This document shows, piece after piece, positions 25,331-53,205 of a DNA stretch of 64,000 nucleotides. The stretch spans positions 55,068 through 119,067 of the forward strand of contig NZ_JAHYSG010000025.1 in NCBI RefSeq assembly GCF_022095675.1. Direction: 5' to 3'. Below the pieces are notes generated by a model. It worked only from the letters and a program-made list of their open reading frames with translations, ran no database searches and was not told where the DNA came from. This stretch comes from Dactylosporangium sp. AC04546. GTDB lineage: Bacteria > Actinomycetota > Actinomycetes > Mycobacteriales > Micromonosporaceae. Position numbers and translations under genes: made by a program. Position 1 is the first letter of the stretch, and each line of letters opens with the position of its first letter.

Positions 25331-25363
25331 ATCGTGGCCGTGCCGAGCTGAAGGGACGCTGAA
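25331..25363 (-). promoter_or_regulatory. TTCAG-repeat promoter of the glycosyltransferase-kinase operon
   Basis: On the minus strand TTCAG (25363-25359), six bases, TTCAG (25352-25348), 11 bases, then CACGAT (25336-25331) as -10. The 11-bp direct repeat takes the place of the -35, as for activator-dependent promoters of OmpR/PhoB regulators. Expected start about 25323, leaving a leader of roughly 35 nt. Confidence 0.7.
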
Positions 25364-25373
25364 CGTGGCGGCG

Positions 25374-25406
25374 TTCAGCGGGCTTTCAGCCGGCCGTGCC
25401 TACGGT
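25374..25406 (+). promoter_or_regulatory. TTCAG-repeat promoter of the lipoprotein-ABC operon (leaderless)
   Basis: TTCAG (25374-25378), six bases, TTCAG (25385-25389), 11 bases, TACGGT (25401-25406). ATG 25414 follows after 7 nt, where transcription should begin, so this mRNA is probably leaderless. It is divergent from the same element at 25331-25363, only 10 bp away. Confidence 0.75.
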
Positions 25407-25413
25407 GCCGGCC

Positions 25414-25971
25414 ATGAGAACGATCGGCATGCTCGCCGCCCTCGCAACGGCGGCCACGGTGGCGCTCGCCGGATGCGGTCAGCACGCGGCGCCGGACGTG
25501 GGCGGCGCCGGCGACATCCCCGACAACCAGGCCTTCGTCACGTACCAGCCGGCCAGCGCCAAATACTCGATCAAGGTGCCGGAAGGCTGGGCCCGCAGCG
25601 AGTCCGGCGCCACCGCCACCTTCACCGACAAGCTCAACACCATCACCGTCACGCTCGGGGCCACGGCCACCGCGCCGGATGTCGCCGCCGGGCAGGCGGA
25701 ACTCGCCTCGTTGCGCAACACCACGGCCGGCTTCACCCCCGGGCAGGTGTCCACGGAGCAACGCCCGGCCGGCCCGGTGCTGCTGATCCGGTACCGCGCC
25801 GACGCCGACCCCGATCCGGTCACCGGCAAGGTCGTCAACGACGACGTCGAACGCTACGAGTACTGGCACTCGCCGGCGGACCTGCTCACGGTGACCCTGG
25901 CCGGCCCGCACGGCGCCGACAACGTCGACCCGTGGCGCACCGTCACCGACTCGGTCCGGTGGCGGTCGTGA
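25414..25971 (+). CDS. Secreted lipoprotein, first gene of an ABC export operon
   Basis: A 185-residue lipoprotein; signal peptide with lipobox LAGC (Cys21). The mature part contains YSIKVPEGWARSE, a block seen in LpqN/photosystem-type lipoproteins of actinobacteria, followed by a beta-rich domain. No catalytic motif is visible. The stop overlaps the GTG of the first ATPase by 4 bp, so it is part of the exporter module, perhaps as an outside-facing partner. ATG 25414 rather than the in-frame ATG upstream is chosen because the promoter ends only 7 nt before it. Confidence 0.8.
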   Translation: MRTIGMLAALATAATVALAGCGQHAAPDVGGAGDIPDNQAFVTYQPASAKYSIKVPEGWARSESGATATFTDKLNTITVTLGATATAPDVAAGQAELASLRNTTAGFTPGQVSTEQRPAGPVLLIRYRADADPDPVTGKVVNDDVERYEYWHSPADLLTVTLAGPHGADNVDPWRTVTDSVRWRS

Positions 25972-26648
25972 CCGCCCCGGCGATCCGGGCCGAGCGGCTC
26001 TTCCGGTTCTTCCACAGCGGCGACGACGAGGTCCTCGCGCTGCGCGGCGTGTCGCTGCACCTGGCGGCGGGGGAGTGGCTCGCCCTCACCGGTCCGTCCG
26101 GCTCGGGCAAGTCGACGCTGCTGGCCTGCCTCGCCGGTCTCGACGAGCCCGACGGCGGCAACGTGTGGATCGCCGGCCGGCGCATCACCCGCCGCCCGGA
26201 GCCGGCGCGGGCCCGGATGCGGGCCCGGCACATCGGCGTGCTGTACCAGGCCGGCAACCTCCTGGAGCACCTGACCGTGGCGCAGAACATCCGCTTCGTG
26301 CGGCGGCTCGCCCGGCTCCACGGCGACGGCGACGACGTGGCCGCGCGGCTCGACGCGGTGGGACTGGGCGGGCGCGGTGGTGCCCTGCCCGGCGAGCTGT
26401 CCGGCGGGCAGGCCGCCCGGGCCGCTCTCGCCGTGGCGCTGGCGAACGACCCGGCGGTCCTCGTCGCCGACGAACCGACCGGCGAACTGGACGAGCTGAC
26501 CGAACGGGCGGTCCTCGGCCTGCTCGCGGCGCGCGCCGCCGCCGGTACCGCCGTGCTCGTCGCCAGCCACAGCCGGGCCGTCACCCGCGCCGCGGACCGG
26601 GTGCTGCACCTGCGCGACGGGCACCTGCTGGACACCGGGGAGCGCTGA
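25968..26648 (+). CDS. ABC transporter ATP-binding protein 1 (MacB/LolD-like)
   Basis: A 226-residue ATPase with Walker A GPSGSGKST (about residue 42), Q-loop, signature LSGGQAARAA, Walker B VLVADEPTGELD and the switch His in VASHSRAV. Starts GTG overlapping the lipoprotein gene. Such ATPases power FtsX-like permeases that act mechanically on envelope substrates rather than importing solutes. A second, different ATPase follows directly. Confidence 0.92.
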   Translation: MTAPAIRAERLFRFFHSGDDEVLALRGVSLHLAAGEWLALTGPSGSGKSTLLACLAGLDEPDGGNVWIAGRRITRRPEPARARMRARHIGVLYQAGNLLEHLTVAQNIRFVRRLARLHGDGDDVAARLDAVGLGGRGGALPGELSGGQAARAALAVALANDPAVLVADEPTGELDELTERAVLGLLAARAAAGTAVLVASHSRAVTRAADRVLHLRDGHLLDTGER

Positions 26649-27305
26649 GTGGACGTCTTCACCGGCGAGCACCTCGTGCGCGCCTTCGGTCCGGCGACCG
26701 CCGTGCGCGACGTCACCTGCGTCGTGCCCGCGGACGCCCGCATCGCCGTCACCGGAGTGTCGGGGTCGGGCAAGTCGACCCTGCTGCACCTCATCGCCGG
26801 CATCGACGAACCGACGAGCGGTAGCACCGCCTGGCCACGCCTCGACGGGCACCCGGGGCTGCATCCGGGCCGTATCGGCATCGTCCTGCAACGGCCGGCG
26901 CTCGTGCCCGCCCTGGACGTCGGCGAGAACGTGGCCCTGCCGCTGTTGCTGGCCAACCACCCGGCCGGCACCGCACGGCACGTCGCGGCCGAGGCCCTGG
27001 ACCTGCTCGGCCTGGCGGATCTGACCGCGCGCCTGCCGCACGAGTTGTCCGGCGGGCAGGCCCAGCGGGTCGCGGTCGCCCGTGCCATCGCCTCCGGGCC
27101 GGACCTGATCGTCGCCGACGAGCCGACCGCGGCCGTGGACTCGGCCGGCGCCGCGCACCTCGTCGACGTCCTGCTCGCCGCCGTGGACCGGATCGGTGCC
27201 GCACTCGTGCTGGCGACCCACGACACCGCCGTGGCCGAGCGGCTCGCCAGCCGCTGGCACATGACCGACGGCGCCCTCCGGACCGTACCGGAGCCGGCAT
27301 GCTGA
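26649..27305 (+). CDS. ABC transporter ATP-binding protein 2
   Basis: A 218-residue ATPase with GVSGSGKST, LSGGQAQRVA and LIVADEPTAAVD; the switch His is in ATHDTAVAE. It begins with GTG immediately after the stop of ATPase 1 and overlaps the permease start by 7 bp. Protein 1 and 2 are only moderately similar, which suggests a fixed heterodimer serving the single large permease. Confidence 0.92.
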   Translation: MDVFTGEHLVRAFGPATAVRDVTCVVPADARIAVTGVSGSGKSTLLHLIAGIDEPTSGSTAWPRLDGHPGLHPGRIGIVLQRPALVPALDVGENVALPLLLANHPAGTARHVAAEALDLLGLADLTARLPHELSGGQAQRVAVARAIASGPDLIVADEPTAAVDSAGAAHLVDVLLAAVDRIGAALVLATHDTAVAERLASRWHMTDGALRTVPEPAC

Positions 27306-29923
27306 CCTGGCTCGCCGGGGTGCTGCGCCGCCGCGCCACCCGGATCGCCGCCACCGCCGCCGGCATCGCCACCGCCGTCGCGCTGCTCGCCACGGTCGGG
27401 GCGTTTCTCGGCCAGGCGCAGGCGACGATGACCCGCCGCGCCACCGCACCCGTCGACGTGGATTGGCAGGTGTACCTCGACGCCGGCGCCGACCCGGCCG
27501 CCGCGCTGGCCGTCACCCGTGCCGAACCCGGCGTCGCCGCCGCCGTGCCGGTCCGCTACGCCGACGTGCCCGCGCTGGCCAGCCGCTCCGCCGGCACGGT
27601 CAGCACCACGGGCGCCGCCGTCGTGCTCGGCCTGCCGCCCGGCTACCGCACGATGTTCCCCCGGCAGATCCGCGACCTGGCCGGCACGGGTGACGGTGTG
27701 TTGCTGGCCCAGCAGACCGCCGCCAACCTCCGCGCGGTCCCCGGGACCGTCCTCACCGTCGAACGTCCCGGCCTCCCCGCGGCCCAGGTCACCGTCGCCG
27801 GGATCGTCGACCTGCCGCACGCCGACACACTGCTCGCGACCGGCCGGCCCGGCGCCACCGCACCGCCCGACAACGTCCTGCTCCTTCCCGACCGGACGTT
27901 CGCCGAGGTGCTGGACCCGCTGCAGGCCACCCGGCCGGACCTCGTCACCACCCAGCTGCATGTGCGCACGCAACGGCAGCTCCCGGCGGCCCCCGACCGT
28001 GCGTACACGGTGAGCACCGGCGCCGCCCGTCACCTCGACGCGCAACTGGCCGGGGCGGGCCACACCACCGACAACCTCGGCGCGGCGCTGGACGCCGCCC
28101 GGTCCGACGCGGCCTACGCCACCGCGCTGTTCCTGTTCCTCGCCACGCCCGGCGTCGCACTCGCCGGGCTGCTGACCGCCACCGTCGTCGCCGTCGCCGC
28201 CCCACGCCGTCGCCGTGAACAGGCGCTCCTGCGCACCCGCGGCGCCACCGCCCGGCAGGTGCTGGCGCTGACCGCTGCCGAGGCCACCGTCAGCGGCATC
28301 GCCGGTGCCGTGGCCGGCGCGGGCGTCGCTGCCGTGCTCGGCGCCACCGTGCTCGGCGGGGTCAGCGGGCCGGTATGGCTGGCGGCGGCCGGCGCCGCGG
28401 GCCTCGCCGTCGCCGCCGGGGCGGTGCTGCTGCCGGCCTGGCGATCGCTGCGCACCGGCAGCGTCGCGCAGGTCCGCGCCGGCAGCGACCTGCCCGGCAC
28501 CCGGACGCCGCTCGCCCTGCGGCTCGGCCTGGACGTCCTCGCGCTCGCCGCCGCCGGGCTGCTGCTGCGGGCCACCACCGAGCACGGCTACCAGCTGGTC
28601 GTCGCCCCCGAGGGCGCACCCCGCATCGCCGTGGACTACTGGGCGTTCGCCGGCCCGGCCCTGCTGTGGCTCGGTGCGGCCCTGCTCGTCTGGCGGATCG
28701 TCGCCGCCGGGCTGCGCCTCGGCCGGCCGGTCCTGACCGTCCTGCTGCGACCGCTGGCCGGGCCGCTGGCCGGCACGGTCGCCGCCACCCTCCAGCGCCG
28801 CCGCCAGCCGATCGCGACCGCGGCCACCCTCATCGCCTGCGCGACGGCCTTCGCCGTCTCCACGGCGGTGTTCACCGCCACCTACCGCCAGCAGGCGGAG
28901 GTCGACGCGAGACTCACCAACGGCGCCGACGTCACCGTCGCGATGCCGCCGGGCGCAACCGGCGGCGACGTCGCCGCGACCATCGCCGCGACACCCGGCG
29001 TCCGGCACGTGGAGACCATCGGGCACCGGTTCGCCTACGTCGGCGCCGACCTGCAGGACCTCTACGCCGTGCGGCCGGGCACGGTCACCGCCGGGGCGCA
29101 CCTCGCCGACGCGTGGTTCACCGGAGGTACCGCGGCCGGACTGATGCGCCAACTGCAACAGCAACCCGACGGTGTGCTGGTCTCGGCCGAGACGGTCGTC
29201 GACTTCCAGCTGCGGCCCGGCGACCGGCTCACCCTGCGCATCACCGACACCCGCACCGGCACACCCGTCACGGTCGCGTTCCGCTTCCTCGGCGTGGTCA
29301 ACGAGTTCCCGACGGCGCCGACCGACAGCTTCCTCGTCGCCAACGAGGACTACGTCGCCGGCCAGGCGGGCGCCGGGCCGGGCACGCACCTGGTCGACAC
29401 CGCCGGCGCCGACCCGGCCGCGGTCGCGGCGGCGCTGCGGCAACGCATCGGTGCCGGGCCGGCGATCACCGACATCACCGCGGCCCGGGCCACCGTCGGC
29501 TCCAGCCTCGCCGGCGTCGACCTGGCCGGCCTGACCCGCATCGAGCTCGGGTTCGCCATGGCGCTCGCGGTCGCCGCCGCCGGACTGGTCCTCGCCGTGG
29601 ACCTCGCCGAGCGGCGCCGTACCTTCACGATCCTCGGCGTGCTGCGAGCCAGGCCACGCCACCTCGCCGGGTTCGTCGCGGCCGAGGCGTGCGTGGTCAC
29701 CGCACCGGCGCTGCTGCTCGGTGCCGCGCTCGGCGCCGGCCTGGCGCAGCTGCTCGTCACGATCCTCAGCGGCGCGTTCGACCCGCCGCCCGACCGGCTG
29801 GCGCTGCCCTGGGGCTACCTGGTCGCGGTGGGGCTGGCGGTCGTCGCGGCCGCGGCGGGGACCGTGACGGCCCTGGTGTTCGCGACCCGCAGACCGGCGC
29901 TGTCCCTGCTTCGCGGCGAGTGA
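27299..29923 (+). CDS. FtsX-like ABC permease
   Basis: An 874-residue membrane protein with the duplicated layout of large FtsX/LolE permeases: an N-terminal TM (about 12-34), a big outside domain, a first three-helix FtsX block (about 270-385), TM segments around 410-480, a second outside domain, and a last FtsX block (about 755-870) with RRRTFTILGVLRARPRHLAGF. It likely moves or releases a lipid-linked or lipoprotein substrate from the membrane outer face. It is the last gene of the lipoprotein-ATPase-ATPase-permease operon; a strong hairpin follows. Confidence 0.9.
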   Translation: MLTWLAGVLRRRATRIAATAAGIATAVALLATVGAFLGQAQATMTRRATAPVDVDWQVYLDAGADPAAALAVTRAEPGVAAAVPVRYADVPALASRSAGTVSTTGAAVVLGLPPGYRTMFPRQIRDLAGTGDGVLLAQQTAANLRAVPGTVLTVERPGLPAAQVTVAGIVDLPHADTLLATGRPGATAPPDNVLLLPDRTFAEVLDPLQATRPDLVTTQLHVRTQRQLPAAPDRAYTVSTGAARHLDAQLAGAGHTTDNLGAALDAARSDAAYATALFLFLATPGVALAGLLTATVVAVAAPRRRREQALLRTRGATARQVLALTAAEATVSGIAGAVAGAGVAAVLGATVLGGVSGPVWLAAAGAAGLAVAAGAVLLPAWRSLRTGSVAQVRAGSDLPGTRTPLALRLGLDVLALAAAGLLLRATTEHGYQLVVAPEGAPRIAVDYWAFAGPALLWLGAALLVWRIVAAGLRLGRPVLTVLLRPLAGPLAGTVAATLQRRRQPIATAATLIACATAFAVSTAVFTATYRQQAEVDARLTNGADVTVAMPPGATGGDVAATIAATPGVRHVETIGHRFAYVGADLQDLYAVRPGTVTAGAHLADAWFTGGTAAGLMRQLQQQPDGVLVSAETVVDFQLRPGDRLTLRITDTRTGTPVTVAFRFLGVVNEFPTAPTDSFLVANEDYVAGQAGAGPGTHLVDTAGADPAAVAAALRQRIGAGPAITDITAARATVGSSLAGVDLAGLTRIELGFAMALAVAAAGLVLAVDLAERRRTFTILGVLRARPRHLAGFVAAEACVVTAPALLLGAALGAGLAQLLVTILSGAFDPPPDRLALPWGYLVAVGLAVVAAAAGTVTALVFATRRPALSLLRGE

Positions 29924-30034
29924 CGTACCGGCGGAGAACAGCACTACCGCCGGTGCGGCGAGGTGCATCACCACCATCTCACCTGCCGGCACTGCGCGCG
30001 GACGGTCGAGGTCCGCGGGCCGGGCGGCGGTGGC

Positions 30035-30069
30035 GCCGGGCCGGGCCTCCTCGTGAGGCCCGGCCCGGC
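30035..30069. terminator. Bidirectional terminator hairpin
   Basis: A 14-bp perfect stem (GCCGGGCCGGGCCT and complement, 7-nt loop) lies between the convergent FtsX permease and the surface protein. It can end both transcripts. The rest of the 29924-30077 gap shows no gene. Confidence 0.85.
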
Positions 30070-30077
30070 GTGACGGT

Positions 30078-30707
30078 CTACGGCTGGACGACGAAGGTGT
30101 AGGTCTTCTCGCCGGTGGTGACGGTGGTGCTGTCGGCGCGTTTCGCGGTGACCTCGAACGTGACGGCGTAGGTGCCGGCCTTGTCGAAGCCCCAGTTGTA
30201 GTGGGCGTGCGTGTTGCGGGGCACGTCGAGATAGTCGGGCGTGCCGTCGCCGCTGTCGAAGAGCTTGACCGGGCTGCCGAAGGCGTCGACGCCGTACACG
30301 CTGAACCCGCCGGGACCGGTCACGCCGGCGAGCTTGAACCTGACCTTGTTGCCGGACAGGGCGTTGGCGGCGATCCCGGTGGTGTTCCAGCCGGCCCAGA
30401 TCTGGCCGGCGACCGGGCTCTGGTCCAGCACCCAGGCGTAGCCGCCGGAGCCGAGGAACGACCAGGCGGTGCCGGCCGGCACCGGCACCCTGACCGACGA
30501 CGGCACCTGGATGGTGACGTCGGACGGCGGGCGTTCGACCGGGGTGGTGCCCGTGGAGTCGAGCACGGAGAGCGTGAGGTTGGTGCCGTCGTAGTCGACG
30601 TCGAGGATGTCGACGTGGCCGGTGGTGAGGGTGACGGCGGCGTACGCGGTGCCCGTCGTGCCGGCGACGAGGGCGGTGGCGAGCGTGGCGGCCAGGGCCG
30701 CCTGCAA
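30078..30707 (-). CDS. Secreted surface protein with choice-of-anchor M / TIGR03769-like repeat
   Basis: A 209-residue exported protein with signal peptide to about residue 23 (GTAYA). GHVDILDVDYDG near the mature N terminus and HAHYNWGFDKAGTYAVTFEV near the C terminus are the signature of the actinobacterial wall-repeat family linked to metal/ABC systems. No sortase motif or C-terminal anchor is visible, so it is likely a soluble or loosely bound wall protein. The only usable start is TTG at 30707; the codons upstream hold no ATG or GTG before a stop, which makes the start atypical. It lies 43 bp after the PAP2 gene and may be co-transcribed. Confidence 0.72.
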   Translation of the reverse strand: MQAALAATLATALVAGTTGTAYAAVTLTTGHVDILDVDYDGTNLTLSVLDSTGTTPVERPPSDVTIQVPSSVRVPVPAGTAWSFLGSGGYAWVLDQSPVAGQIWAGWNTTGIAANALSGNKVRFKLAGVTGPGGFSVYGVDAFGSPVKLFDSGDGTPDYLDVPRNTHAHYNWGFDKAGTYAVTFEVTAKRADSTTVTTGEKTYTFVVQP

Positions 30708-30750
30708 CGCGCGGCGACTGTCGGCCGGGTCCGGACCGGCCGGCGCCTGG

Positions 30751-31410
30751 TTACGGCCGCGGTGATGGCCGCCGGCTGGGCGTCACCCGGTCGGCGCGCC
30801 CCGACGCCCGCACCGTCGCCGCGGCGGCGGCGGTGACCGCGCAGGCCAGCAGCCAGCCGCCGAGGACGTCGGTGGGCCAGTGCGCGAGCAGCGCCACCCG
30901 GCTGATGCCGACGAGCACCGCCCACGTGACGGCGACGGTCGTGAGTGCGATGCGGGACCGGCGGCTCGACAGCATCGTCCAGCCGAGGACGATGACGATG
31001 CCGGCGGCGATGGCCGAGGACGCCGTGTGGCCGGACGGGTAGGCGAAGCCGCTCGTGGCGGTGAGCGGGCCGACCGGTCTGGGCCGGTGCAGCAGCAGCA
31101 TCACGGCGATCCGCACGGCGCTCGTGGTGGCGACGGTCAGCAGCAGGAAGACGACGCCGGTGCGGTGCTGGCGCAGGAGCAGCACGATCAGTGCCAGAGC
31201 GGCCAGCGACAGCAGGACGCTCGTGTCGCCGGTGTGGGTGATGGCCGACATGGTCGCCTGCCAGGACGGGTGGGCCGGCGTGAACCGGCCGGCGAACCCG
31301 CTGACGGCCGCGTCGAAGCGCACGATCGGTCCGAACCGGGCCGCGACGAGCGCGGTGAGCACGACGAAGAGCACGGCGGGCACCGCGGCCGCGGTCCGGC
31401 GGTCAGCCAC
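30751..31410 (-). CDS. PAP2-family lipid phosphatase
   Basis: A 219-residue membrane protein with six hydrophobic segments. The three PAP2 phosphatase motifs are present: LLLHRPRP, YPSGHTASS and SRVALLAHWPTDVLGG. It would dephosphorylate a lipid phosphate such as undecaprenyl diphosphate or phosphatidate on the outer face. Starts with GTG, overlapping the response-regulator stop by 8 bp, so it is made together with it. Part of the operon headed by 32887. Confidence 0.92.
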   Translation of the reverse strand: MADRRTAAAVPAVLFVVLTALVAARFGPIVRFDAAVSGFAGRFTPAHPSWQATMSAITHTGDTSVLLSLAALALIVLLLRQHRTGVVFLLLTVATTSAVRIAVMLLLHRPRPVGPLTATSGFAYPSGHTASSAIAAGIVIVLGWTMLSSRRSRIALTTVAVTWAVLVGISRVALLAHWPTDVLGGWLLACAVTAAAAATVRASGRADRVTPSRRPSPRP

Positions 31411-32089
31411 CGTCGGGTTCCAGCCGGTAGCCGACGCCGCGGACGGTCCTGATGGCCGAGCGGTCGTACGGGTGGTCGATCTTCTTGCGCAGGTAGCCGA
31501 CGTACACCTCGACGATGTTGGGGTCGCCGTCGAAGTTGGCGTCCCACACGTTCTCGATGACGGCGGTCTTGGTCATGACCGTGCCGGCGTTTCGCATGAG
31601 GAACTCCAGCAGCGCGAACTCGCGCGGGGTGACCGCGACCTCGTCGTCGCCGCGGGTCACCCGCCGCCGGGCCGGGTCGAGGCGCAGGTCGCCGGCGGCG
31701 AGCACGGCGGGGCGCTGCGGGGCGCCGCGGCGGATCAGCGCCCGCAGCCGGGCGACGAGCACCACGAACGAGAAAGGCTTCGTGAGGTAGTCGTCGGCGC
31801 CGAGGTCGAGCGCGTCGGCCTGGTCGTAGTCGCCGTCCTTCGCGGTGAGCATGAGGACGGGGGTCCACACCTCCTGCTGGCGCAGCCGCCGGCACACCTC
31901 GTAGCCGCTGAGGCCGGGCAGCATGATGTCGAGCACGACCGCGTCGTAGGCGCCGTGCGGGGTCTCGGTGGCGGCCCACAACCCGTCGACGCCGTTGAAC
32001 ATGAGGTCGGTCGTGAAGCCCTCGGCGGCGAGCCCGTCGCGGATCGTCTCGGCGAGACCGACCTCGTCCTCGACCAGCAGCAGTCGCAT
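31403..32089 (-). CDS. OmpR-family response regulator without adjacent kinase
   Basis: A 228-residue regulator. Receiver domain with acidic pocket VEDE, phospho-acceptor Asp54 in VVLDIMLPG and Lys in YLTKPFSF; C-terminal winged helix with VTPREFALLEFLMRN and VYVGYLRKKID. It is the second gene of the operon starting at 32887 and is followed by a PAP2 phosphatase. No kinase gene flanks it. Its operon promoter has the TTCAG-N6-TTCAG repeat (11-bp period), the binding format of OmpR-type dimers. I propose it binds this motif and pairs with the kinase at 21080-22495 (inference). Confidence 0.93.
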   Translation of the reverse strand: MRLLLVEDEVGLAETIRDGLAAEGFTTDLMFNGVDGLWAATETPHGAYDAVVLDIMLPGLSGYEVCRRLRQQEVWTPVLMLTAKDGDYDQADALDLGADDYLTKPFSFVVLVARLRALIRRGAPQRPAVLAAGDLRLDPARRRVTRGDDEVAVTPREFALLEFLMRNAGTVMTKTAVIENVWDANFDGDPNIVEVYVGYLRKKIDHPYDRSAIRTVRGVGYRLEPDGG

Positions 32090-32098
32090 TTCGTACTC

Positions 32099-32887
32099 CT
32101 ATCGGAACGCCCGCGCCGCCGCGGCGCGCGGTTCGGGGGTGGCGTCGACGCGGCTGCGGGTCAGGTATGCCACGAGCGCCACCGACGCGACGAGGAAGAC
32201 GACGCTCGGGCCGACGGTGCCGAGCCCGAGGCCGCCGTTTTCGTGCGGCTGCGACAGCCAGTCGCCGACCGACGCGCCGAGCGGGCGGGTCAGCACGTAG
32301 GCGGCCCAGAAGGCGAGCACGCCGCCGAGCAGCCGCAGCCAGTAGCCGAGGCCGATGTGCGCGATGGCGGCGGCGAAGATGGCGGCGGAGGCCAGGTAGC
32401 CGAGGCTGATGCGCTCGGCGAGCAGGTCACCGGCGGCGGTGCCGAGTGCGAAGGTGAACAGGATGGCGGCCCAGTAGTACAGCTCCCGCCTCGTGGTGAC
32501 GATCGTGTGGATCGACAGCGTGCGTTCGCTGCGGTACCACAGGATGAACGTGGCGGCGAGCGCGACGGCGAAGACCGCGGTGGTCGCCTCCAGCGGCACG
32601 CCGAAGTTGTCGACGAGGTTGTCGGTGACGAGGGTGCCGACGACGCTGACGAGGATCACGACGAGCCAGTAGCGCCACGGCACGTAGCGGCCGGCGCGCA
32701 GCTGCAGCGTGACGGCGGCGGCGGTCAGCGCGGCCATCACGACGGTCGTCCAGGTCAGGCCGAGCCCGAGGTTCATGTTGAGCAGGTCGGCGGCGGTCTC
32801 GCCGACAGTGGTGGCGAGGATCTTGATGATCCAGAAGTAGATGGTGACCTCGGGTACCTTGTTCGCCATCCGGCGCGCGAGCTTCAT
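32099..32887 (-). CDS. COG4705-type integral membrane protein
   Basis: A 262-residue membrane protein with about eight transmembrane segments. NKVPEVTIYFWIIKILATT at the N terminus and TVGETAADLL are the conserved blocks of this uncharacterised membrane-anchored family. ATG 32887 is supported because the -10 of the TTCAG promoter ends 7 nt before it, making the mRNA probably leaderless. It is the first gene of the operon with the response regulator and PAP2 phosphatase. Function unknown; association with two-component genes is recurrent in actinobacteria as far as I recall. Confidence 0.85.
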   Translation of the reverse strand: MKLARRMANKVPEVTIYFWIIKILATTVGETAADLLNMNLGLGLTWTTVVMAALTAAAVTLQLRAGRYVPWRYWLVVILVSVVGTLVTDNLVDNFGVPLEATTAVFAVALAATFILWYRSERTLSIHTIVTTRRELYYWAAILFTFALGTAAGDLLAERISLGYLASAAIFAAAIAHIGLGYWLRLLGGVLAFWAAYVLTRPLGASVGDWLSQPHENGGLGLGTVGPSVVFLVASVALVAYLTRSRVDATPEPRAAAARAFR

Positions 32888-32894
32888 GCCGGGC

Positions 32895-32927
32895 AGCGTC
32901 ACAGAGCGGACCTGAAAGGGGGCTGAA
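32895..32927 (-). promoter_or_regulatory. TTCAG-repeat promoter of the response-regulator operon (leaderless)
   Basis: Minus strand: TTCAG (32927-32923), six bases, TTCAG (32916-32912), 11 bases, GACGCT (32900-32895), 7 nt, ATG 32887. It overlaps the last codons of the upstream gene. This gives direct autoregulation if the regulator binds this motif. Confidence 0.72.
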
Positions 32928-34035
32928 TCCGTGGTCCCCCGGACGGGTGCCGGGCGGGCGCGACGAGGATGCCGGCGCAGGCCAGGACGTAGGCGAGGGT
33001 CAGCCATCCGTGGGCGGCGTCGGGCATCGGCACGAAGCGGGCGGTGAACAGCGCGATCCAGGCGGTCGCGGTCCACCACGGCATGGTCGCTCGCGAACCC
33101 AGCACGTCCCACAGGGCGGCCCCGACGACCACACCGGCCACGTAGTACTTGTTGGTGCCGGGGTCGAGCACGATCCGGGCCGCGACGGCGAGCAGCACGA
33201 CGGCCGGCCAGCGCCCGCGGCGCCAGGCGAGCAGGGCCAGGGCGACGCCGAGCGCCGCCTGCGCCGGCCGATCCCAGGGCGGTGTCCGGGCGTCGTGGAC
33301 GCCGAGGACGCGCAGCGCCGACAGCCGCGTGTTGGGGATGGTGAAGTGCAGCGCGTTGCTGGTCGCCGGGTCGGCGAGGAAGAACGGCAGCCAGCCCAGG
33401 GCGATGACGGCGGCGGTCACCGCGGCACCGAGCACGACCCCGCGGCCCCGGCCGAGCAGGAGCAGCAGGCACGCGAACGGCAGCGCCCACGGCTTCGCGT
33501 CGACGGCCAGGCCGAACAGTGCCCCGGCGAGGATCGCCCGGCCGCTCAGGGCGGCGCGCAGGCCGAGGACGGTGAACAGCAGCGCCAGCACGTCGTCGAG
33601 GTGGGCGACGCCGACGGCCAGGAACATCCAGGCGGGCATCATGCACAGCCCGGCGGCGGTGACGCGCCGGTCGATCGAGCGCCGGTCGAGGTCCGGCCGG
33701 ACGCGTGTCGCGATCTGCCGGATCTGCCACAGGATCGTGAGGCCGGCGGCCGCGCCCAGCACCTGCCAGATCGCCAGCGCGCCGGCGACGCCCCAGGGCA
33801 TCGCCAGCGCCGCGGCCAGGAGCGCGACCGGGCCGATCTGCAGGACCGGCGCGGCGGCGTACAGGTGCAGGCCGCCGCGCACCGGGTCGTCGAGGTCGGC
33901 GAGCGCCTGGGCGCCCTGGACGAAGAAGTGCCAAGAGGTTCCGCCGTTCCATGCCGCGCCGATGAACCACACGAGGGTCCAGCCGGCCAGCGCGACCGCC
34001 GCGGGGCGGGCGCGTACCACTGTCATGTCCACCAT
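32899..34035 (-). CDS. Polytopic membrane protein, GT87-like (polyprenol-phosphate-dependent transferase type)
   Basis: A 378-residue protein with about ten transmembrane helices. The first outer loop has GGLHLYAAAPVLQIGPVA, and DAKPWALPFACL matches a lipid-linked-sugar transferase-like region; conserved acidic and aromatic residues resemble the DUF2029/GT87 group. It may add a sugar from a polyprenyl-phosphate donor on the outside of the membrane, but this is weakly supported. ATG 34035 or 34026 are possible; the TTCAG promoter -10 ends 8 nt before 34035. Its 3' end overlaps the promoter of the next operon. Confidence 0.65.
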   Translation of the reverse strand: MVDMTVVRARPAAVALAGWTLVWFIGAAWNGGTSWHFFVQGAQALADLDDPVRGGLHLYAAAPVLQIGPVALLAAALAMPWGVAGALAIWQVLGAAAGLTILWQIRQIATRVRPDLDRRSIDRRVTAAGLCMMPAWMFLAVGVAHLDDVLALLFTVLGLRAALSGRAILAGALFGLAVDAKPWALPFACLLLLLGRGRGVVLGAAVTAAVIALGWLPFFLADPATSNALHFTIPNTRLSALRVLGVHDARTPPWDRPAQAALGVALALLAWRRGRWPAVVLLAVAARIVLDPGTNKYYVAGVVVGAALWDVLGSRATMPWWTATAWIALFTARFVPMPDAAHGWLTLAYVLACAGILVAPARHPSGGPRIQPPFRSAL

Positions 34036-34043
34036 GGCGGGGC

Positions 34044-34076
34044 ACGGTATGGCCGCGTGGCTGAACGCTGCCTGAA
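34044..34076 (-). promoter_or_regulatory. TTCAG-repeat promoter of the GT87-like gene
   Basis: Minus strand: TTCAG (34076-34072), six bases, TTCAG (34065-34061), 11 bases, TACCGT (34049-34044), then 8 nt to ATG 34035. It has the same geometry as the other six copies and again a near-leaderless start. Confidence 0.72.
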
Positions 34077-34117
34077 GGTCCCCCGGTGCCCCGATCTGAT
34101 GATCCTGCCGTGTCTAC

Positions 34118-34134
34118 TCCTACATCCTGTAGGA
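34118..34134. promoter_or_regulatory. BlaI-type operator, distal copy
   Basis: TCCTACATCCTGTAGGA: perfect 7-bp arms around a 3-bp spacer, with the same arms as the site before blaI (35484). It sits between the 3' end of the M56 peptidase gene and the GT87-like gene, about 40 bp upstream of the latter's TTCAG repeats. BlaI may therefore also influence that gene. Confidence 0.7.
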
Positions 34135-34190
34135 AAGAGACGCAACCGCTGACCGTGACCGGATCCCGCCTGGTCGAGCTCGGCGATCCG

Positions 34191-35078
34191 TCACAGCCAG
34201 GCGCGGGCGACCGCGACGAAGTCGGCGACGGCGGCACCGCCGGCGGCCGCGGAGGTGATCACGACCGCCGCGACACCGGCGGTGGCCCGGTGGGAGCGGC
34301 CGCCGGTCGGCCGGGTGAGGGCGGCGACCCGGCGTGTGACGTCCGAGCCGCCGGCCGCGAGCCCGCCGGCGGGCCGGCCGCCGCCCGACAGGGCGACCTT
34401 CGCGATCGCCCGGGCGACCACGCCACGGTCGCCGACCGCGGTGGCGGCGGCCTCGTCGGCGCTGCGCTCCACGAGCAGGGTGACGACCCGGGCGACCGGG
34501 CGCAGCAGCGGGTTGACCGCCGCCGCGGCCGCGGCGGCGGCGACCGTGCGGTGGTGGCGGTGGCGGAGGTGGGCCTCCTCGTGGGCGAGGACGGCGGCGC
34601 GTTCGGTCCGGTCGAGCAGTCGCAGCAGGCCGGCGGTGACCAGGACGTGCCCGGGCCGTCCGGTCCCGGCCGGTACCGCCACGGCGTGCGCCTCCGGCAG
34701 GTCGGCGACGAGCAGCCCGTCGTGGGCGGTGCCGGCGGCGACCAGGTCCCGGGTGGCGGCGCGGCTGCGGCGCAGGTTCGCCACACACCGCCAGCCGGCC
34801 CAGGCGAGGGCGGCCGCGGCGGCCAGGGCGACCGGGCCCGGGACCGGCTCGGGCAGTGGATAGGGGGCGATGTGCTCGCGGGCCTCCAGCATGGGCAGGT
34901 CGTCGAGCAGGGTCAGAGCCAGCAGGACCAGGCTGACGGTGCTCACCGTGGCGGCCAGCAGTGCCGCGGCCGCCAGCGCGCGGGCCGCCCGCTCGGGTGC
35001 CGCGGTGGTGGCCAGCGGCCGCGCGGCGGCCGCCAGCAGGACCGGCAGCAGCAGCGGCAGGTAGACGGCGAGGTTCAT
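34191..35078 (-). CDS. M56-family (BlaR1/MecR1-like) membrane metallopeptidase
   Basis: A 295-residue membrane protein with four or so transmembrane helices. The zinc motif HEEAHLRHRHH (HExxH) lies near residue 172, and a third zinc ligand, the Glu in ERSADEAA, follows. Unlike BlaR1 it lacks an outside penicillin-binding domain, so it is a short sensor-protease or house-cleaning form. It overlaps blaI by 4 bp. In the known model an activated M56 protease causes cleavage of BlaI; what activates this one is unknown. Confidence 0.88.
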   Translation of the reverse strand: MNLAVYLPLLLPVLLAAAARPLATTAAPERAARALAAAALLAATVSTVSLVLLALTLLDDLPMLEAREHIAPYPLPEPVPGPVALAAAAALAWAGWRCVANLRRSRAATRDLVAAGTAHDGLLVADLPEAHAVAVPAGTGRPGHVLVTAGLLRLLDRTERAAVLAHEEAHLRHRHHRTVAAAAAAAAVNPLLRPVARVVTLLVERSADEAAATAVGDRGVVARAIAKVALSGGGRPAGGLAAGGSDVTRRVAALTRPTGGRSHRATAGVAAVVITSAAAGGAAVADFVAVARAWL

Positions 35079-35452
35079 GCCGGCCGCTCGCCCTGCAGCA
35101 GCGCGCGCAGGATGGCCAGGTCGTCCTCGGCGAGTCCGTTGGTGAACCGGCGCAGCACCGCCTGGCGGTCCGCGGGCCCGTCGAGCACCGCACGCATCTG
35201 CTGGGCCGCCGCGGTCGCGGCGTCCCGGGCCGGCCAGTACACGTGGCCGCGGCCGGCGGCGCGCCGCTCGACGAGGCCCTTGTCGTGCATCCGCACCAGA
35301 ATCGTCTGCACGGTGTTGTACGCGAGGTCGGCGTCGAGGGCGGCCTGCAGCTGGGTCGCGGACAGTGGCTCGCCGGCGGCCCACAGTGCCGCCATCGCCT
35401 GTGCCTCGAGCGAGCCCGGCGCTCGCCGTGCGGAGGGTTCTGCCACCTTCAC
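35075..35452 (-). CDS. blaI: BlaI/MecI/CopY-family repressor
   Basis: A 125-residue winged-helix repressor: GSLEAQAMAALWAAGEPLSATQLQ and AYNTVQTILVRMHDKGLVER are the DNA-binding blocks, with a dimerising C-terminal region. It is coupled to the M56 peptidase by a 4-bp overlap. The perfect palindrome 32 bp upstream (35484-35500) is its likely operator, giving autoregulation and possibly control of the divergent iron-uptake fusion gene. Confidence 0.92.
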   Translation of the reverse strand: MKVAEPSARRAPGSLEAQAMAALWAAGEPLSATQLQAALDADLAYNTVQTILVRMHDKGLVERRAAGRGHVYWPARDAATAAAQQMRAVLDGPADRQAVLRRFTNGLAEDDLAILRALLQGERPA

Positions 35453-35483
35453 ACCATAACGGTGACCTGCCGGGTTGACTCGC

Positions 35484-35500
35484 TCCTACATCTTGTAGGA
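35484..35500. promoter_or_regulatory. BlaI operator between blaI and the efeUO fusion
   Basis: TCCTACATCTTGTAGGA: 7-bp perfect arms with a 3-bp spacer; the core CTACA-N3-TGTAG fits the BlaI/MecI type. It lies only 11 bp from the iron-regulator box, in the shared divergent promoter region. Confidence 0.82.
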
Positions 35501-35511
35501 GATTATCGGGG

Positions 35512-35530
35512 TTAGGTAAGCCTACGCTTG
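35512..35530 (+). promoter_or_regulatory. IdeR/DmdR (DtxR-family) iron box
   Basis: TTAGGTAAGCCTACGCTTG matches the DtxR-family consensus TWAGGTWAGSCTWACCTWA at 16 of 19 positions. It directly precedes and overlaps the ribosome site of the iron-uptake fusion gene. Expected effect: repression by iron-loaded regulator. Confidence 0.8.
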
Positions 35531-35539
35531 GAGCGCCCT

Positions 35540-37555
35540 GTGGGAACGGTCTTCTTCGCCAGCTACCTCATCGGGCTGCGCGACGGGCTCGAAGCGTCCC
35601 TCGTCGTCAGCATCCTGGTCGCGTTCCTGCGGACCCAGACCGACACAGCCCAGACCGGCAGCACCCAACCCGGCGACCCCGCGCGTGGGAGGCTGCGCCA
35701 GGTCTGGGGCGGCGTCGGCGCCGCCGTCCTCGTCTCCGCCGCCGTCGGCGTCCTGCTGACCACCGTCGCCGGCTGGCTGGGCAGCGGCACCCGGATGGAG
35801 CTGTTCGAGGCCGTCACCTCCCTCACGGCCGTCGCGCTGGTCACCTGGATGATCTTCTGGATGCGCCGCTCCGCCCGCACCCTGCGCGGCGAGCTCACCG
35901 GCCGCCTCTCCGACGCCATCGCCATGGGCGGCTGGGCGGTCGCCACGATGGCGTTCTTCGCGGTCCTGCGCGAAGGGGTCGAGATGGTCCTGCTCGTCTT
36001 CGCCGCCGCCGAGGGCGCCGCCGACTCGGCCGCGCCGCTGGCCGGCATGGTGCTGGGCATCGCCACCGCCGTCGCGCTGGGCTGGGTCATCGCCCGCGCC
36101 ACCGTGCGGATCAACCTCGGACGGTTCTTCACCTGGACCGGCGTGCTGCTCATCCTCGTCGCGGCCGGCATCCTCAAGTACGGCGTCCACGGCCTGCAGA
36201 GCGCCGGGGTGCTGCCCGGCGGCAACCGCGACGCCTTCGACCTGACCACCGTCATCGACCCCACCTCGTGGTACGCGACGCTGCTCGCCGGCACCGTCAA
36301 CCTCACGCCCCGGGCCACCGCCCTGGAGATCACCGCCTGGCTCGCCTTCGCGTTCGTGATGCTCGCCCTGTTCTTCCGTCCGGCCCCGCGGCCGGCGACG
36401 GCGACGGGCGGCAAAGCGCACGGGCTCGCCGCGATCGCCGCCGTGGCGGTCCTCGCCGGCCTCACCCCGGGCGGCTGCGGCGCACCGGCGGCCCAGCCCG
36501 GCGGTGCCCCGGAAGCCGGGCGGATCTCCGTGGCCGCCACCGACACCACCTGCACCCTCAGCACCGACCACACGGGCGGCGGCACGACCACCTTCACCGT
36601 CGACAACAAGGGCACCAAGGTCACCGAGCTGTACGTCTACGGCGCGGCCGAACGCGTTCTCGGCGAGGTCGAGAACGTCGCACCCGGTGTCAGCCGTGAG
36701 CTGCGGGTCGACCTCACGCCAGGCACCTACACCGTCGCCTGCAAGCCGGGCATGATCGGCGCCGGCATCCGCAGCACCCTCACCGTCACCGGCTCGGCGC
36801 CCCCGCCGGCGACCGCCGCCGCCGCCGCCCTCGCCGCGGCCGCCGAGGGCTACCACCGCTACGTGCGCTCCCAGGCCGACGCGTTCGTGGAACAGACCCG
36901 CCAGTTCGTCGACGCCGTCAAGGCCGGCCGGCGCGACCAGGCACAGACGCTGTTCCCGACGGCCCGCACCCCCTACGAGCGGATCGAGACCGTCGCGGAG
37001 ACCTTCGGCGACCTCGACCCGCGCATCGACGCCCGCGACGGCGACCTGGACCCGGGCGTGGAGTGGACCGGCTACCACCGCATCGAACAGCAGCTGTGGA
37101 ACGGCGGTGACCTCGCCGCCGTCGCGCCCCTCGCCGACCGGCTGCTGGCCGACGTCGAGGCGCTGCGCCAGCGGCTCGACACGGTCACCCTGACCCCGCT
37201 CGAGCTCGCCAACGGCGCCAAGGGCCTGCTCGACGAGGTCGCCACGAAGAAGGTCACCGGCGAGGAGGACCGCTACTCGCACACCGACCTGTGGGACTTC
37301 GCCGCCAACGTCGACGGCTGCCGGGCCGCGCTCGCGGCGCTGCGCCCCGTCCTCGACGCCCGCCGCCCCGAGCTCGGCCCGCAGCTCGACGCGCGGTTCG
37401 CCGCCGTCGACGCCGAACTGGCCAGGTACCGCACCGGCGATCGCTACCAGCCGTACACCGTCCTCCAACCGCCACAGGTCCAGCTGCTGGCCGGCACGGT
37501 CAACGCGCTCGCCGAACAGGTCGCCGCCGTGCCGCCGGTCATCGCCGGGCGCTGA
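35540..37555 (+). CDS. EfeU-EfeO fusion: ferrous/ferric iron permease joined to cupredoxin-M75 iron-binding protein
   Basis: A 671-residue single polypeptide. The N-terminal half (about 1-285) is an FTR1/EfeU permease with seven helices and two RExxE-type iron motifs, RDGLE (14-18) and REGVE (144-148). A hydrophobic segment near 295-312 (ends PGGC) is where a free EfeO would have its signal. It is followed by a cupredoxin domain (about 325-415; Cys in DTTCTLS and VACKPGM) and an imelysin/M75 domain with HRIE (513-516). I chose GTG at 35540 (GGAG 6 nt upstream) over TTG 35528. EfeB peroxidase is not nearby. Controlled by an iron box and perhaps BlaI. Confidence 0.9.
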   Translation: MGTVFFASYLIGLRDGLEASLVVSILVAFLRTQTDTAQTGSTQPGDPARGRLRQVWGGVGAAVLVSAAVGVLLTTVAGWLGSGTRMELFEAVTSLTAVALVTWMIFWMRRSARTLRGELTGRLSDAIAMGGWAVATMAFFAVLREGVEMVLLVFAAAEGAADSAAPLAGMVLGIATAVALGWVIARATVRINLGRFFTWTGVLLILVAAGILKYGVHGLQSAGVLPGGNRDAFDLTTVIDPTSWYATLLAGTVNLTPRATALEITAWLAFAFVMLALFFRPAPRPATATGGKAHGLAAIAAVAVLAGLTPGGCGAPAAQPGGAPEAGRISVAATDTTCTLSTDHTGGGTTTFTVDNKGTKVTELYVYGAAERVLGEVENVAPGVSRELRVDLTPGTYTVACKPGMIGAGIRSTLTVTGSAPPPATAAAAALAAAAEGYHRYVRSQADAFVEQTRQFVDAVKAGRRDQAQTLFPTARTPYERIETVAETFGDLDPRIDARDGDLDPGVEWTGYHRIEQQLWNGGDLAAVAPLADRLLADVEALRQRLDTVTLTPLELANGAKGLLDEVATKKVTGEEDRYSHTDLWDFAANVDGCRAALAALRPVLDARRPELGPQLDARFAAVDAELARYRTGDRYQPYTVLQPPQVQLLAGTVNALAEQVAAVPPVIAGR

Positions 37556-37581
37556 GGCCGGCAGCGGCTGCCCACCCCGTC

Positions 37582-37614
37582 TTCAACGGATTCTCAGCTT
37601 CGCCGGCCTACCGT
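37582..37614 (+). promoter_or_regulatory. TTCAG-repeat promoter of the DedA gene
   Basis: TTCAA (37582-37586), six bases, CTCAG (37593-37597), 11 bases, TACCGT (37609-37614). Half-sites are each one base off the consensus, but spacing is identical. A leader of about 30 nt follows with GAGGAG before the GTG start. Confidence 0.65.
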
Positions 37615-37653
37615 TGCCGCCGAACGACAGACCGACCAGCGAGGAGCGATACC

Positions 37654-38262
37654 GTGCGGTACCTGGACCCCGAATGGCTCATCTCCACCTTCGGGGTGCT
37701 GGGCATTCTTGCGATCGTGTTCGCCGAGTCGGGCCTGCTGATCGGCTTCTTCCTGCCCGGCGACTCGCTGCTGTTCACCACCGGCCTGCTGGTCGCCGGC
37801 GGGCAGTACCTGCACCTGCCGCTGTGGCTGGTGATCGTGCTCGTCGTCGCCGCCGCGATCGCCGGCGACCAGGTCGGCTACGTCTTCGGCCGCCGGGTCG
37901 GCCCGGCCCTGTTCCGGCGGCCGAACTCGAGGCTGTTCCGGCAGGAGAACCTCACGAAGGCGCAGGAGTTCTTCGACCGCTACGGGGCGCGCTCCATCGT
38001 CCTGGCCCGGTTCGTGCCGATCGTGCGCACGTTCACCCCGATCGTCGCCGGTGCCTCACGGATGCACTACCGCACCTTCGTGCTCTACAACGTCATCGGC
38101 GGCGCGGCGTGGGGCACCGGTGTCACGCTGCTCGGCTACTACCTCGGCCAGATCGAGTTCGTGAAGTCCAACATCGAGCTCATCCTCATCGGGATCGTCG
38201 TGCTGTCGGTCGTGCCGATCGTCGTCGAGCTGCTGCGCGGCCGGGCCCGCGCCCGTTCATGA
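37654..38262 (+). CDS. DedA-family membrane protein
   Basis: A 202-residue membrane protein with the DedA/VTT features: ESGLLIGFFLPGDSLLFTTG, GDQVGYVFGRRVG and ARFVPIVRTFTPIVAGASRM, the last being the re-entrant loop with essential Arg. DedA proteins are lipid scramblases or carriers, recently linked to recycling of undecaprenyl phosphate. It starts with GTG at 37654 after GAGGAG. UppP, which makes the same carrier lipid, follows at once, so the two act on the same pool (inference). Confidence 0.92.
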   Translation: MRYLDPEWLISTFGVLGILAIVFAESGLLIGFFLPGDSLLFTTGLLVAGGQYLHLPLWLVIVLVVAAAIAGDQVGYVFGRRVGPALFRRPNSRLFRQENLTKAQEFFDRYGARSIVLARFVPIVRTFTPIVAGASRMHYRTFVLYNVIGGAAWGTGVTLLGYYLGQIEFVKSNIELILIGIVVLSVVPIVVELLRGRARARS

Positions 38263-38288
38263 ATTTCTCAGCAACGCCCGGCCAGGAT
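38256..38288 (+). promoter_or_regulatory. TTCAG-repeat promoter of uppP, inside the end of the DedA gene
   Basis: TTCAT (38256-38260), six bases, CTCAG (38267-38271), 11 bases, CAGGAT (38283-38288), 7 nt, GTG 38296. The first half-site overlaps the DedA stop codon. The -10 covers the upstream ATG (38287), so translation should start at the GTG. Confidence 0.65.
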
Positions 38289-38295
38289 GCGCGGC

Positions 38296-39237
38296 GTGAC
38301 CATCGACGCACACCACCTGACCTATCCCGAGGCGCTCGTCATCGGCCTCCTGCAGGGCGTGACCGAGTTGTTCCCGGTGTCCAGCCTGGGCCACAGCGTG
38401 CTGCTGCCCGCGCTGCTCGGCGGGCGCTGGGCCCGCGACCTCGACGTGTCCGCGCCCGAGTCGCCGTACCTCGCGTTCGTCGTCGGGCTGCACGTCGCGA
38501 CGGCGTTCGCGCTGCTGCTGTTCTTCTGGCGTGACTGGCTGCGCATCATCACCGGCCTCGTCACGTCGGTGCGGTACCGGCGCATCGAACACCCGGACGA
38601 GCGCCTCGCCTGGATGATCGTGCTGGCGACGATCCCGGTCGGGGTCAGCGGACTGGTGCTGGAGCACACGTTCCGCACCGTCCTCGGCCGGCCCGTCCCG
38701 GCGGCCATCTTCCTCACCGTCAACGGTGTGCTGCTGTACGGCTTCGAACGGCTCCGGCGCAGTGCCGCCGCCGTGGACGCAACAGCCACCGACACCGACA
38801 CCGGCACCGGCACCGGCACCGGCACCGACGCCGGCGTCGCGGCGGACCGGCGGATCGCGGCCGGCTCGCTCGGCCGGGCGACGCTCATCGGCAGCGCGCA
38901 GGTGCTCGCCCTGCTGCCCGGGATCAGCCGGTCCGGCGCGACGCTCGGCGCCGGGCTGGTCAAGGGCCTGTCGCACGAGGACGCCGCCCGGTTCTCGTTC
39001 CTGCTCGCCACGCCGGTCATCCTCGCCGCCGGCGTGCTGAAGATCCCGGACCTGTTCGGTCCGCTCGGCGCCGGCATCCACGGCCAGGTCCTCGCCGGCA
39101 GCCTCGCGGCGTTCGCCGCGGCGTACGGCTCCGTGCGGTTCCTGACCAAGTACTTCGAAACCCGGACACTCACGCCGTTCGCCGGATACTGTGTGGTGGC
39201 CGGTCTCGGCAGCGTCGTCTGGCTGCTGGCCGCGTAG
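38296..39237 (+). CDS. uppP: Undecaprenyl-diphosphatase (BacA/UppP)
   Basis: A 313-residue membrane enzyme that turns undecaprenyl diphosphate into the monophosphate carrier for peptidoglycan and wall glycans. LLQGVTELFPVSSLGHS carries the catalytic Glu-rich motif, and PGISRSGATLGAGL the second. A Thr/Asp/Gly repeat is inserted in a loop (about residues 163-176). The start is either ATG 38287 or GTG 38296. I choose the GTG because the -10 of its own promoter overlaps the ATG, which predicts a leaderless mRNA beginning at 38296. Confidence 0.9.
   Translation: MTIDAHHLTYPEALVIGLLQGVTELFPVSSLGHSVLLPALLGGRWARDLDVSAPESPYLAFVVGLHVATAFALLLFFWRDWLRIITGLVTSVRYRRIEHPDERLAWMIVLATIPVGVSGLVLEHTFRTVLGRPVPAAIFLTVNGVLLYGFERLRRSAAAVDATATDTDTGTGTGTGTDAGVAADRRIAAGSLGRATLIGSAQVLALLPGISRSGATLGAGLVKGLSHEDAARFSFLLATPVILAAGVLKIPDLFGPLGAGIHGQVLAGSLAAFAAAYGSVRFLTKYFETRTLTPFAGYCVVAGLGSVVWLLAA
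38791..38832 (+). repeat. Hexanucleotide microsatellite inside uppP
   Basis: Seven tandem 6-bp units, two GACACC, four GGCACC and one GACGCC, encode a T-D/T-G run in a cytoplasmic or outside loop. All changes are multiples of 6 bp, so copy variation would keep the frame. Confidence 0.8.
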
Positions 39238-39244
39238 TCCTCGC

Positions 39245-39277
39245 TTCAGCGTCCTTTCAGCCTCCGACTGGGAGCGT
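39245..39277 (+). promoter_or_regulatory. TTCAG-repeat promoter of the flippase/GT4/PIG-L operon
   Basis: TTCAG (39245-39249), six bases, TTCAG (39256-39260), 11 bases, GAGCGT (39272-39277). Leader of about 26 nt, with GGAGG (39300-39304) six bases before ATG 39311. Lies between uppP and the flippase gene. Confidence 0.7.
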
Positions 39278-40336: not shown

Positions 40337-40349
40337 CCGGGAGCCCCCA

Positions 40350-53195: not shown

Positions 53196-53205
53196 GCCGA
53201 ACCTG

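Follow-up and report, generated by a model that had tools for sequence, protein, structure and literature searches.

Activators of the PhoB/PhoP and PmrA/BasR types recognize tandem half-sites, repeated every 11 bp, close to the -35 region, and PmrA governs modification of envelope lipids and answers cations. In the afsS promoter of Streptomyces coelicolor, according to the available part of the report (PMC10936776), the -35 element is TTCAGC, the -10 element is CACTGT, and two 11-bp repeats occupy positions -40 to -19. For CopR of Corynebacterium glutamicum, the available text of PMC3353115 gives a direct repeat with an 11-bp period, TGAAGATTTnnTGAAGATTT, and describes activation by CopRS of its own operon and of the neighbouring one. 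Here we consider a 64,000-nt stretch of DNA from Dactylosporangium sp. AC04546 (contig NZ_JAHYSG010000025.1, positions 55,068 to 119,067; this whole stretch is referred to as the window), in which seven sites of the type TTCAG-N6-TTCAG-N11-hexamer lie on both sides of a gene encoding an OmpR-family response regulator.

The seven sites are highly likely to be tandem operators of this regulator, set in promoters without a usable -35 box. Moreover, the promoters and the regulator very probably form a real, conserved control circuit of a familiar type, since in many other actinobacteria the same site is found with this regulator gene and the membrane-related genes around it. The sites and the regulator gene are the following.

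25331..25363, minus strand: operator-promoter 1, TTCAG-N6-TTCAG-N11-CACGAT, before the operon of a glycosyltransferase resembling monogalactosyldiacylglycerol (MGDG) synthase, a polysaccharide deacetylase, an epimerase and a kinase
25374..25406, plus strand: operator-promoter 2, TTCAG-N6-TTCAG-N11-TACGGT, before the operon of a lipoprotein and an ATP-binding cassette (ABC) exporter; ATG at 25414, 7 nt past the hexamer, leaderless-like
32895..32927, minus strand: operator-promoter 3, TTCAG-N6-TTCAG-N11-GACGCT, before the genes for DUF347, response regulator and PAP2; ATG at 32887, 7 nt past the hexamer
34044..34076, minus strand: operator-promoter 4, TTCAG-N6-TTCAG-N11-TACCGT, before a GT87-like gene; ATG at 34035, 8 nt past the hexamer
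37582..37614, plus strand: operator-promoter 5 (degenerate), TTCAA-N6-CTCAG-N11-TACCGT, before DedA; 23.3 bits with the matrix trained on relatives only
38256..38288, plus strand: operator-promoter 6 (degenerate), TTCAT-N6-CTCAG-N11-CAGGAT, before UppP; GTG at 38296, 7 nt past the hexamer; 21.9 bits
39245..39277, plus strand: operator-promoter 7, TTCAG-N6-TTCAG-N11-GAGCGT, before the operon of an LPG_synthase_TM flippase-like protein, a GT4 glycosyltransferase and a PIG-L-like protein
31403..32089, minus strand: OmpR-family response regulator (Response_reg and Trans_reg_C domains), the proposed owner of the sites

All seven sequences were found at the coordinates and on the strands given in the initial annotation. 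The TTCAG-like pair with an 11-bp period described there is exact in five sites, while 37582..37614 and 38256..38288 carry two mismatches each; the hexamer lies 11 nt past the pair, with A in position 2 and T in position 6, in all seven. Spacer letters vary among the copies, and the sites precede genes on both strands. The first half-site of 38256..38288 overlaps the DedA stop codon and 32895..32927 overlaps the 3' end of the GT87-like gene, therefore the seven sites are not all intergenic. Two further claims held in part. The absence of a -35 box stands as far as a single scan goes, TTGAC-N18-TANNNT with at most one mismatch, whose four matches all lie outside 25-40 kb. The statement that all seven promoters drive envelope or lipid-carrier genes is nearly right, DUF347 being without an established function.

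The pattern stands out from the composition of the window and of the genome. Exact TTCAG pairs occur in the window five times at a gap of 6 and zero to two times at each other gap from 0 to 19. The full pattern has five exact matches there against 0.00 in 100 dinucleotide shuffles, and eight matches with at most two mismatches against a shuffle mean of 0.27; the eighth, 53175-53207, receives merely 10.2 bits with the matrix trained on relatives. The genome-wide enrichment check proposed together with the sites was run as a pattern scan of the 13.0-Mb genome and yielded six exact matches, five of them in these 14 kb, against none for the reversed pattern, so that the description of the arrangement as hard to get by chance was borne out in both window and genome. 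With at most one mismatch, 11 matches were found in the genome against two for the control, and allowing Y as the first letter of each half-site added one genome match. As five of the six exact matches fall in the cluster, the regulon in this genome appears to be essentially confined to it. The sixth exact site, at C38:10778 (locus L129), resembles a TTCAG-pair copy at 7608, about 3.2 kb from it; that copy precedes a gene for 879 amino acids, and a simple gene finder called no gene between the two.

For the degenerate sites, a matrix was derived from 91 sites in relatives, excluding the window and near copies of it. Across the 64 kb it gives 21.9-31.9 bits to the seven sites and 10.2 bits to the next best place; because they score so far above that place, sites 37582+ and 38256+ are very probably real members of the set.

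The regulator matches PF00072 with 82.2 bits and PF00486 with 91.1 bits, both above the cut-off, and its closest named homologue, among the matches listed, is a protein of D. sucinum with 96% identity. Its relatives (best 80 of 98) provided 79 loci from many actinobacterial families, and 78 loci remained for the gap counts after a near copy, L020, had been left out. In 11 loci of the Micromonosporaceae type YTCAG pairs with a gap of 6 occur 21 times (other gaps, 0-2), and in the 67 other loci 83 times (other gaps, 1-14). TANNNT follows these pairs at 11 nt in 6/21 and 27/83 cases, respectively, with at most one case at any other spacing. In total, 83 full sites were counted, at least one being present in 48 of the 78 loci. 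They concentrate around the regulator gene, with 14 at less than 0.5 kb, 7 up to 1 kb, 22 up to 2.5 kb, 28 up to 5 kb, 11 up to 7.5 kb and one up to 10 kb. A site directly precedes the regulator gene in 6 of the 78 loci and the kinase gene in L023, L027, L087, L133 and L147. Thirty loci of other OmpR-family genes (95 kb) contain neither full sites nor gap-6 pairs, to be compared at similar size with 33 full sites in 28 of the 78 regulator loci after trimming (255 kb). Moreover, ten plasmid loci, examined once the motif had been fixed, contain 20 gap-6 pairs (other gaps, 0-8), and NANNNT lies at exactly 11 nt in 18 of these 20.

The sites also track the presence of the regulator. Among 200 genomes of the family, an exact TTCAG site is found in 28/35 genomes with a regulator of at least 70% identity and in 52/165 without it (P = 2e-7), presence being judged among the matches listed in order of E-value; without genus g12 the counts are 28/35 and 37/143 (P = 5e-9). 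The reversed-pattern control gave a single match in each of 10 of the 200 genomes. On a tree of 76 regulators, loci of one type (TTCAG pairs, pairs with CTCAG, or no site) group together, requiring 16 changes against 28.5 after shuffling, a clustering to which loci that are near copies contribute. The recognition helix is largely conserved among the regulator homologues. The expectation of an OmpR/PhoB-type activator, and of the product of 31403-32089 in particular, is thus upheld, this regulator being the owner best supported by the sequences.

Comparison with individual relatives points in the same direction. Between the window and genome G095, half-sites are identical in 70/70 letters and the hexamer A and T in 14/14, while ungapped comparison gives 38/42 for N6, 64/77 for N11 and 154/210 for the 30 nt upstream; the half-sites of operators 1, 2, 5 and 6 are unchanged in G095. 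Conserved sites before orthologues, named in the initial annotation as supporting evidence, were found in G044, namely before the orthologous glycosyltransferase (L131, 7323) and before the orthologous lipoprotein (L153). In this genome the cluster genes are spread over four contigs, every part having its own site: C111 holds the regulator operon, GT87, MGDG-type and PAP2-DedA genes and the ABC exporter, C28 the flippase and GT4 genes, C112 the kinase alone, and C172 a second DUF347 gene; the site before PAP2-DedA has one mismatch. In G115, a single contig of 12 Mb, the regulator gene is near 3.24 Mb, the kinase gene near 5.70 Mb and a DUF347 gene near 11.40 Mb, and a site precedes each of them. 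Sites that travel with scattered genes would be hard to explain by local duplication. In G106, of the same genus as G115, the regulator is 83% identical and no exact TTCAG site was found.

A variant occurs in four genomes of one genus (L143, L144, L146, L148), where CTCAG-N6-CTCAG-N11-TANNNT lies at the 3' end of a gene that by eye is amidohydrolase-like. The next gene starts about 7 nt past this site in L143 and L148, and is of ABC type by similarity in L144 and L146.

Targets were surveyed in 86 loci with 1474 called genes, from 60 nt inside the start to 200 nt upstream of it, and 72 genes have a full site near the start. The foremost target is DUF347, with a site at 30 of 42 genes (P = 4e-33), followed by the regulator itself (10/86) and the MGDG-type transferase (3/6), whereas the kinases (6/87) are not significant; these P values are too small, because several Nocardia loci are near copies. 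Further genes flagged by Pfam encode PAP2 phosphatases, MspA porins, a PMT_2 mannosyltransferase-like protein and a UPF0014 protein (the FetB family). On plasmids, the targets are PAP2, DedA and the regulator. The Mycobacterium avium plasmid pP2-4a (L159) has full sites before FTR1, before HlyIII and, at a distance of 296 nt, before a FetA-like ATPase, so that this regulator family occurs there among metal-transport genes.

Several observations weigh against ownership of the sites by the regulator 31403-32089. No full site is present in 30 of the 78 regulator loci, an exact TTCAG site is missing from 7 of the 35 family genomes that have a close regulator and present in 52 of the 165 that do not; 15 of these 52 are in genus g12, and the other 37 may belong to paralogous regulators. 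The loci include near copies, several of them from Nocardia, and the P values overstate the association. In the target survey 28 of 100 sites were assigned to no called gene, for a part of which the gene finder, a simple codon-position GC score, may be responsible. When the window was resampled six times with a Markov model, a chance match of 18.8 bits arose once and one of 9.0 bits once, and the other four resamplings had none above 8 bits. DUF347 was also considered as a universal target and rejected, as a site occurs at one of 30 DUF347 genes chosen irrespective of the regulator, and at two of 12 places in the phylum sample beyond the window's own.

Other owners can be weighed against the same data. 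A paralogous response regulator, such as the 65% identical one at C195:6313-6963, or several regulators with overlapping specificity could bind the sites, as paralogues share the recognition helix, and some with 64% identity lie directly behind TTCAG pairs (G160:C41, G185:C100, G187:C84). However, among the 37 genomes of genus g4, most of which have a homologue of 64-68% identity, just three contain an exact TTCAG site, two of these (G116, G140) also holding a regulator of at least 70% identity, and near the C195 gene there is only a CTCAG/CACAG pair with one mismatch on the opposite strand, which makes this explanation very unlikely. We regard as highly improbable an activator of the Streptomyces antibiotic regulatory protein (SARP) family similar to AfsR. 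Such proteins contact DNA through an OmpR-type domain, recognize 11-bp direct repeats over the -35 region and act at a set distance from the -10 element; the afsS promoter is nearly identical in sequence and geometry, as far as the available text of PMC10936776 goes, and the genome has at least 44 matches to the BTAD domain (150 of 190 first-look candidates scored). None of these 44 is on the window contig, though, and in many genera, as well as on plasmids, the sites gather near a single response-regulator gene, fade with distance from it and track its presence, a pattern not expected of a global SARP. A dispersed repetitive element or a compositional accident, finally, is suggested by genus g12, where 14 of the 15 site-bearing genomes have 7-30 matches each and the two loci read (L139, L140) show a tandem intergenic repeat, about 98 nt apart, rather than the promoter pattern, and by C38:10778 with its similar copy about 3.2 kb off; the C38 and g12 sites look like repeats and were rejected as operators. 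For the seven window sites such an origin is extremely improbable: their spacer letters differ from copy to copy, they precede genes on both strands, their half-sites are frozen between species while the flanks drift, and start codons are phased 6-8 nt past the hexamer. Binding by the regulator 31403-32089 is hence the reading adopted below.

Positions of start codons give an additional feature of these promoters. At operators 2, 3, 4 and 6 (4/7) the start codon lies 7-8 nt past the hexamer, and at 100 sites of relatives ATG or GTG occurs at 6, 7 and 8 nt past it 18, 21 and 24 times, while the other offsets up to 39 nt have 3.3 each on average. An mRNA with a start codon 7-8 nt behind the hexamer would be leaderless, and four of the seven promoters look leaderless. 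With the hexamer taken as the -10 element, the half-sites would start near -39 and -28, where activators of the PhoB and SARP types replace the -35 element. A dimer of the phosphorylated regulator may bind head to tail on the two half-sites, approximately from -39 to -24, substitute for the -35 contact and bring RNA polymerase to the hexamer. Since the putative cognate kinase is in the operon of operator 1, its induction would coincide with that of the regulator and the exporters, closing a positive loop, and the regulon would rebuild lipid carriers and glycolipids and export something. The signal could be an envelope insult (a cationic compound or a polyvalent metal); this is a guess, possible rather than probable.

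Besides the regulator, the cluster comprises the following genes.

21080..22495, minus strand: sensor histidine kinase with HAMP, HisKA and HATPase domains (Pfam); by hydropathy, two hydrophobic helices flank a short extracellular part
22492..23514, minus strand: GalE-like epimerase, TIGR01179 above the cut-off
23511..24188, minus strand: polysaccharide deacetylase
24233..25288, minus strand: MGDG-synthase-like glycosyltransferase
25414..25971, plus strand: lipoprotein, recognized by eye; no Pfam family
25959..29923, plus strand: two ABC ATPases and an FtsX-type permease (MacB-like exporter)
30751..31410, minus strand: PAP2-family phosphatase
32099..32887, minus strand: DUF347 membrane protein of the COG4705 type, the target seen most often in relatives
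32899..34035, minus strand: GT87-like protein, 19 bits, under the Pfam cut-off of 25
37654..38262, plus strand: DedA/VTT-domain protein
38287..39237, plus strand: UppP (BacA) undecaprenyl-diphosphatase; the leaderless start would be GTG 38296
39311..42268, plus strand: LPG_synthase_TM flippase-like protein, GT4 glycosyltransferase and PIG-L/MshB-like deacetylase

The kinase 21080-22495 is the last gene of a probable four-gene operon behind operator 1. It is 53-64% identical to kinases adjoining the orthologous regulator in nine relatives (L021, L023-L030), and because of this adjacency it appears to be the cognate partner, the two-component system being split here by 8.9 kb. The NCBIfam models of metal regulators and metal kinases are the best matches of the two proteins, though below the cut-offs: 227.3 against 279.2 bits for the regulator (TIGR01387, CzcR/SilR/CopR) and 213.2 against 292.55 bits for the kinase (TIGR01386). 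The regulator also scores below the PmrA/BasR equivalog NF007928 (161.9 bits, cut-off 330) and below the NCBIfam cut-off for PhoB. Metal sensing by conserved His or Cys was considered and received no support, as the sensor part of the 40 best-scoring aligned kinases has no such column at 85% or more.

On a Mycolicibacterium plasmid, the gene in the place of the lipoprotein beside the ABC genes, matched by gene order alone, is annotated as 'PsbP-related'. Inside the cluster, a pair of genes for a BlaI-type repressor and an M48/M56-type peptidase (34191-35395) has no site of its own, and 35540-37555 encodes one 671-amino-acid protein in which FTR1, cupredoxin and imelysin (M75) domains follow one another; these roles usually fall to EfeU and EfeO separately. 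Some site-bearing DUF347 proteins (L055, L134, L141) have about 150 additional C-terminal amino acids belonging to no Pfam family. Each repeat of the DUF347 alignment has acidic positions with little or no variation (E30, D34, D89, E135, D154 and D209 of the window protein), which might be as expected of a cation path. DUF347 relatives occur on 255 plasmid records far beyond actinobacteria (Pantoea, Cronobacter, Rhizobium and others), mostly as 'hypothetical' among the matches listed.

The operator YTCAG-N6-YTCAG-N11-TANNNT, often with a start codon after 6-8 nt, is a searchable signature of a widespread two-component system, one by which the regulon can be traced in genome sequences. Through this operator, the uncharacterised DUF347 family is linked to undecaprenyl-carrier phosphatases and DedA proteins. 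Moreover, a kinase and a regulator that are megabases apart and have the same operator are a useful case for how regulons hold together, and the circuit would bear on intrinsic tolerance in soil actinobacteria should its signal prove to be a cell-wall antibiotic or a metal. A wider proposal, unlikely as a whole, is an envelope-stress circuit that extends across actinobacteria and lies in part on plasmids. Its two-component system could be split and its targets scattered, with nothing but one rigid operator-promoter, often leaderless, to hold them together. Such a circuit would be the Gram-positive equivalent of PmrAB and would link metal or cationic stress to the recycling of undecaprenyl phosphate; DUF347 would act as a metal transporter, and the other targets would be PAP2/UppP, DedA, glycolipid enzymes, the lipoprotein-ABC exporter and, in some lineages, FetB- and FTR1-type metal transporters and MspA porins.

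No title or abstract found in the literature describes this motif or regulon, and the motif written out as letters matched no paper, subscription papers being mostly outside the search. CutR of Streptomyces, an early candidate, was rejected because its reported motif is TAWATAAA (PMC12802291, available part). In Frankia, the accessible text of PMC4531530 reports UppP/DUF347 operons up-regulated with lead and names no regulator; the target pair UppP and DUF347 is shared with the window, and by analogy this induction suggests a metal signal here. A link at the sequence level was not found, with no sites in 13 upstream regions of family f66, which may be Frankia.

Systems of the PhoB and PmrA types differ from the window in the letters of the half-sites, and the window organism has no lipopolysaccharide. 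As far as the available descriptions go, AfsR and the afs box resemble the window in the 11-bp direct repeats overlapping the -35 region, TTCAGC, the weak -10 element and the OmpR-type DNA-binding domain, whereas AfsR has NOD and TPR parts and belongs to the SARPs, not to the response regulators. CopRS, on the same partial basis, is similar in having an OmpR-type regulator, and the reverse complement of TGAAGATTTnnTGAAGATTT holds TTCA with an 11-bp period; its targets, however, serve copper detoxification rather than lipid carriers and glycolipids, and the window regulator is below the cut-off of TIGR01387. Thus, what appears to be new here is the regulon with its operator family, while the tandem-repeat geometry is already known from OmpR-type regulators and SARPs, since the afsS promoter and CopR share it.

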